Source of the DNA: Myxococcota bacterium
Lineage (GTDB): Bacteria; Myxococcota_A; Polyangia; HGW-17
Reading direction: 5' to 3'
Assembly (NCBI GenBank): GCA_018821305.1
Contig: JAHJMN010000124.1
Location: 1-64,000, forward strand
Length of the DNA stretch: 64,000 bases
Shown: piece after piece, positions 1,622-1,776 of the stretch
How the letters are laid out: every line of letters begins with the position of its first letter
Position numbering within the stretch: position 1 is the stretch's first letter
The notes under the pieces: generated by a model
What the model saw: the letters and a program-made list of their open reading frames with translations, nothing else
What the model was told of the DNA's origin: nothing
Database searches by the model: none
Program-made: the position numbers and the translations under genes

Positions 1622-1776
1622 AGTTCGTGTCCTGAAATTCAATTTTTATCAAAATTGAGCATGTTTACGAAAACATGCTATTCAGAACACTATAATAATT
1701 TCAAGGTCTTCATTCTTAATGTCCTGTGTACAAATTTGGTGTAAACTTGAAAATTTGGTATTACAGGACATTAACT
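1622..1776 (+). repeat. Modular double-hairpin repeat, copy C (subfamily 2)
   Basis: AGTTCGTGTCCTGAAATTC...GAGCATGTTTACGAAAACATGCTATTCAGAACACTATAATAATTTCAAGGTCTTCATTCTTAATGTCCTGTG...TTACAGGACATTAACT; flanks CTTT/ATTT. Confidence 0.9.

Follow-up and report, generated by a model that had tools for sequence, protein, structure and literature searches.

A modular family of type II MITEs in a Myxococcota genome and its probable ISNCY-like partner

Two-hairpin elements at the locus and across the genome

Near the start of the window (the whole 64,000-nucleotide stretch of Myxococcota DNA that we analysed) lies a subfamily-2 MITE of 153 bp on the forward strand (positions 1623–1775; GTTCGTGTCCTG ... 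CAGGACATTAAC), the boundaries of which were set by analysis of target-site duplications (TSDs). It is flanked by TCTTTA on the left (1617–1622) and TATTTA on the right (1776–1781), which match at five of six bases. The original prediction had placed two tandem hairpins here, and the order of their arms was confirmed as TGTCCTG (1628), CAGAACA, TGTCCTG (1720), and CAGGACA (1764). All three parts of the element read forward. The left module, L2 (1623–1691), has an outer stem (GTGTCCTGAA/TTCAGAACAC) around two small hairpins in a predicted three-way junction fold; the linker, K2 (1692–1715), is homologous to, but diverged from, the linker of subfamily 1 (K1); and the right module, R2 (1716–1775), is a single hairpin with a TGTCCTG/CAGGACA stem. 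An ATG inside this right module opens a 209-amino-acid open reading frame (ORF; 1719–2348), and the MITE may supply the start codon or N-terminus of the downstream gene.

The window contains further copies of both subfamilies, whose lengths are about 141 bp (subfamily 1) and 153 bp (subfamily 2). Subfamily 1 is represented by L1-K1-R1 copies at the contig start (2–141, forward) and at 5651–5791 (forward), an inverted copy about 60 bp upstream of the 1623–1775 element (1424–1565, reverse), a copy with a compensated TGTCCGG/CCGGCCA left stem (4876–5017, reverse), and an L1-R1 copy (53218–53359, forward). Subfamily-2 copies lie at 7651–7803 (forward, 153 bp, flanked by TACTGA/TACTTA with five of six bases matching), 46832–46984 (forward, 153 bp), and 56446–56589 (reverse), and a degenerate one occupies 28135–28279 (reverse). 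Besides these, we found a lone R2 module without a duplication (5100–5160, forward); a rearranged copy made up of the start of L2, a K1 linker, and a hairpin cassette, I (24519–24734, forward); a hybrid fragment in which the start of L2 is fused to the L1 interior and K1 (28760–28851, forward); a fragment consisting of cassette I and R1 (49862–49971, reverse); and an L1 fragment (50040–50088, reverse).

The repeat at 1622–1776 belongs to a population of several hundred short parasitic DNA elements in this genome. TGTCCTG was observed 38 times in the window, compared with 6.0 expected, and the hairpin pattern TGTCCTG-N30..60-CAGGACA produced 343 matches in the 5.2-Mb genome, compared with two for a reversed-pattern control. 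Near-full-length copies number at least 40 for each of the two subfamilies, the best 40 having been scored per subfamily. Module counts, TSDs, and stacking were determined in about 1.84 Mb of the 5.2-Mb genome, taken as stretches and read directly; hidden Markov models identified 150 L1, 82 L2, 139 R1, and 96 R2 modules there. ORFs of at least 150 amino acids cover 82% of the sequence, yet not one of the 94 TSD-bearing copies falls within such a frame. The MITE sequence was found neither in the single available genome of the same genus nor in any of the 38 relatives searched.

Other repeats are dispersed through the genome. A second high-copy family (CCGCTTCCTGAGTAAAAGGATCGAAA...) occurs at L049 18140–18420 and in about 50 other places, with approximately 75% identity, and a solo R1 is inserted into one of its copies (L049). 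A third family of about 100 bp (TTGTATTTATTAATTATTTACTTC...), seen on L054, L062, L055, L170, and others, supplies empty sites for the MITEs. A CRISPR-like array with the repeat ATTTCCGCTTCTGAAAAGAAGCGGCTCCATTGAAGC (L020, about 2000–2627, on contig C8) adjoins an IS200-like transposase gene, and a 278-amino-acid ORF beside the array may be a cas gene.

Termini, target duplications, and stacking

The MITE occurs in size forms from 52 to 273 bp, all bounded by GTTNNTGTCCTG ends, which are terminal inverted repeats. Both subfamilies have the same termini (GTTCG-TGTCCTG / GTTA(C/A)-TGTCCTG) and the same TANNTA duplication. Among end pairs 40–330 bp apart, 110 match at five or more of the six flanking bases, 69 of these at all six; for the next 6 bp outward, which served as the control, the corresponding numbers were three and zero. 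Exact matching over the full flank reached its maximum at a length of six; at length two, a match also arises from the invariant TA by itself. The consensus of the duplicated target is TANNTA, with a constant length of 6 bp. Non-palindromic duplications (GAATTA, GAACTA, and TGCATA) are also present and show it to be a true 6-bp duplication. For four insertions the genome holds an empty paralogous site with the TANNTA-like target once and no element. A solo R1 (L049:18285–18345) could be compared with its empty site (L177:1206–1343) over 138 bp without gaps, with a single TAATTA, and three 153-bp copies also have empty paralogues. Variant right ends, with TGTCTATCCGG replacing GTTACTGTCCTG, were observed at L039 6197–6453 and L029 11334–11456; these are perhaps a third subfamily with altered ends.

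Elements are frequently stacked: 34 of the 94 TSD-bearing copies adjoin the end of another element over one shared TSD. The 30 stacked junctions were head-to-tail, with a left end (LE) abutting a right end (RE), in 26 cases, LE to LE in three, and RE to RE in one. A symmetric target predicts that about half of the junctions will be head-to-tail, and the bias therefore suggests either directional targeting or array growth via recombination between duplications. Eight back-to-back element ends in the 1.84 Mb of this genome are spaced by 2 bp, not 6 bp.

Hairpin modules and their combinations

The original prediction described unrelated interiors in a two-module architecture, and each half of this description needs qualification. 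The interiors of the left hairpins have no significant similarity, but the linkers and the right hairpins are diverged homologues: for the linkers, p is about 4e-4 with CACTA and 0.007 without it, and for the right-hairpin interiors, ungapped alignment gave p of about 2e-4. Likewise, the two hairpins are present, but the family has more modules than two, including optional hairpin cassettes and single-hairpin forms.

It had also been suggested that left and right modules might assort independently. Pair counts in the 1.84 Mb instead revealed strong linkage (92 L1R1, 8 L1R2, 5 L2R1, and 56 L2R2; Fisher p about 1.8e-28), and the prediction of independent assortment thus fails. Hybrids are rare but genuine: L160:4089–4240 and L175:14142–14293 are both L2-K1-R1 with perfect TSDs, and at L038:17216–17338 the left slot is occupied by an inverted R2.

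Single-hairpin elements carry two right ends (L049:18285–18345, with a perfect TAATTA, and L061:3484–3544), two left ends (C16:40626–40690), or one of each (L176:5608–5669, with a perfect TATTTA). Right hairpins of 61 bp probably transpose alone. We explain the RE/RE form by use of the inner GTTACTGTCCTG of subfamily 1 as an end; this sequence can serve in this way and is predicted to be bound by the transposase, and binding to the inner CTTAATGTCCTG of subfamily 2 is predicted to be weak. The proposed role of the TGTCCTG arms in recognition needs narrowing: the outer arms do lie at the ends, but not all inner arms are functional ends, the one within the left module being usually decayed. By contrast with the RE/RE solo, L032:18714–18774 looks like a deletion between the two TGTCCTG repeats.

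Two optional cassettes have fixed positions. In both subfamilies, cassette I (about 65 bp) interrupts the right module between TGTC and TCCTG. The position of cassette J (about 38 bp) is the linker. Cassette-bearing elements of 206, 245, and 273 bp have perfect TSDs. We rejected the idea that I and J are independent repeats inserted into MITEs because they are almost confined to these elements or their immediate neighbourhood.

A broader proposal, which we put forward tentatively and consider somewhat doubtful, is that mobility really resides in the individual hairpin. End-bounded modules of about 61 bp (RE-hairpin-RE, LE-hairpin-LE, and LE-hairpin-RE) would transpose themselves, larger MITEs would be assembled from these units plus the fixed-position cassettes, and the transposase would use the TANNTA duplications that it makes to build directional, head-to-tail arrays, making this a combinatorial MITE system.

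The partner insertion sequence and the source of mobility

A genome-wide search with DDE_Tnp_1 returned a single match, a gene on contig C216 encoding a 450-amino-acid protein. The insertion sequence (IS) that carries it measures 1,679 bp when read across contigs and has at least six copies, collapsed at contig ends; no single contig contains an intact copy, and both junctions of one copy could not be paired. The ISNCY model NF033593 was by far the best family for the transposase (E 1.2e-87 over 416 residues), although its score of 294.4 bits is below the curated cut-off of 325 bits, and we therefore call the element "ISNCY-like". The protein exceeds the cut-off for the DDE transposase domain PF01609, and the DDE-type residues D150, D355, and E406 are invariant in nine sequences. 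No autonomous copy was found in the first 825 kb by pairing ends with matching TSDs, a transposase scan of named genomes produced no match, and the single same-genus genome available yielded no intact IS relative.

The IS ends match those of the MITEs. We identified six left junctions, in which TANNTA is followed by GTTCGTGTCCTGAAATTAAG (C33, C83, C170, C172, C175, and C182), three right junctions, in which ..CTATTTCAGGACAGTAAC is followed by TANNTA (C123, C193, and C216), and one decayed right end (C154). All IS junctions are at TANNTA, though they are on different contigs. The terminal 16–17 bp are common to the IS and both MITE subfamilies, and nothing else they share is significant. Four of the six left junctions and one right junction adjoin a MITE. 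At L123 (C154) and L124 (C193), TAAC runs of (TAAC)6 and (TAAC)3 follow straight after the IS right end and may have been left by successive rounds of insertion and excision.

The TSD sequence is conserved in homologous ISs. Homologues with a TANNTA duplication, at 21–29% protein identity, occur in genomes of the same class. Terminal repeats and a TSD were present on one copy in L088 (TACCTA followed by GTTCCCGTCCC), L090 (TAGCTA followed by GTGTCTGTCCC), and L095, L096, and L099 (TAGCTA flanks). The GTT/GTG..GTCC ends are retained in L088 and L090.

Taking these sequence comparisons together, the two subfamilies are very probably one type II MITE family mobilised in trans by the ISNCY-like IS of the same genome. 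The earlier idea that one mobilising enzyme serves both is well supported because the IS ends and TANNTA sites match and homologues duplicate TANNTA too; the sole DDE_Tnp_1 transposase detected lies in an IS with identical ends. Recognition by the ends was likewise upheld by the shared termini and duplication and by the lack of any other similarity between IS and MITEs. Distinct termini and distinct partner transposases were looked for and not found. We infer that this enzyme moves the MITEs. It would recognise termini of 12–17 bp (left end, GTTCGTGTCCTGAAATT; right end, GTTACTGTCCTGAAATA) and cut the element out or copy it, and insertion would go between genes at TANNTA, doubling those 6 bp. 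The interior is a set of hairpin modules (L1/L2, R1/R2, and optional cassettes I and J) that recombine only rarely, and some hairpins with their own end sequences probably move alone as 61-bp elements. The transposase families searched genome-wide were DDE_Tnp_1 and Y1_Tnp; some contribution from a transposase with a different fold, or from one missing in the assembly, is conceivable in principle.

Two other sources of mobility deserve consideration. The linked module blocks and the differing left-hairpin interiors might be read as the mark of two separate MITE families, each moved by an enzyme of its own, that either share TGTCCTG or arrived at it by convergence. However, the ends and TSDs of the subfamilies are identical, homology extends to the linkers and right hairpins, hybrids between them bear perfect TSDs, and the one DDE_Tnp_1 transposase found has ends that fit both; we therefore consider two separate families very unlikely. 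Tandem hairpins in intergenic DNA also recall BIMEs, and the genome encodes three Y1_Tnp proteins, the genes for two of which lie a few hundred base pairs to about 1 kb from an element, as might be expected of REP/BIME-like palindromes moved by a Y1 transposase (HUH, IS200-like or RAYT). By contrast, Y1 transposition leaves no target duplication, and the perfect 6-bp TSDs of 69 end pairs, together with the empty sites, largely refute this mechanism. The Y1 proteins score 24.5, 21.2, and 23.3 bits, against a cut-off of 80 for REP transposases, and the flanks of their genes lack MITE ends as termini of their own. On the TSDs and the scores under the RAYT cut-off, we rejected mobilisation by Y1 or RAYT enzymes, which is extremely unlikely.

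A different possibility is that the hairpins are retained for a transcribed RNA that serves the host, or for attenuator or terminator activity, and that their mobility is incidental. The folds are indeed strong: the two-hairpin folds of both subfamilies beat 200 of 200 dinucleotide shuffles (z −6.6 and −4.8), and L1 and L2 share one predicted fold, an outer stem with two inner hairpins in a three-way junction, despite unrelated interior sequences. The L1 stems also show compensatory, both-sided changes, in the inner stem at pairs 30–45 (GC in 34, AT in 32) and 32–43 (TA in 53, AT in 19) and in the outer stem (TA in 44, GC in 13). However, the double changes go back to few sublineages, and selection on the structure of the L1 stems is therefore suggested, not proven; template switching in palindromes could yield the same both-sided pattern. 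Positions 1–12000 of the window have no Rfam match, and searches of relatives did not recover the family. We thus regard a host RNA function as unlikely and mobilisation in trans by the ISNCY-like IS as the preferred explanation.

The MITE family is modular, species-specific, and present in very high copy number. With a candidate transposase for it and a target rule that is exact (TANNTA, 6 bp), recognition, the minimal element size (at most 61 bp), and module exchange can be tested directly. Among known systems, ISNCY-like ISs (NF033593) have the transposases nearest to the partner enzyme, which has DDE-type invariant residues. Our literature search for a TANNTA insertion sequence or ISNCY MITEs found no precedent, and in the literature searched we found no description of an ISNCY-like IS that combines GTTnnTGTCC ends with a 6-bp TANNTA duplication. 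These elements thereby gain a target-duplication signature conserved across distant homologues.

REP/BIME sequences with RAYT (PMC2817692) are likewise high-copy intergenic palindromes in tandem, but the present family has a 6-bp TSD and a DDE-type partner, and the Y1 proteins of this genome are not RAYT by the cut-off; REP-like hairpin arrays can thus arise by ordinary DDE transposition. BOX elements of Streptococcus are composites of boxA, boxB, and boxC that also occur as lone modules, with two variants in S. suis (PMC3049150). The likeness to BOX is one of architecture only: BOX varies in the number of boxB modules, whereas here hairpins that differ in sequence fill fixed slots, and unlike BOX, the present family has an IS partner with matching ends and single modules with their own TSD. 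A further match is with the type II MITEs of prokaryotes, such as QMITE and Chunjie, which have been reviewed (PMC10969869). Like them, the present elements are short, AT-rich, and intergenic, have terminal inverted repeats and a TSD, and resemble an IS only at their ends; they differ in that their interior is made up of hairpin modules that can be exchanged, and some of these appear to move alone. Thus, the combination of an IS and a type II MITE is of an ordinary kind, and we describe a new, unusually modular and abundant type II MITE family, not a new class of element.
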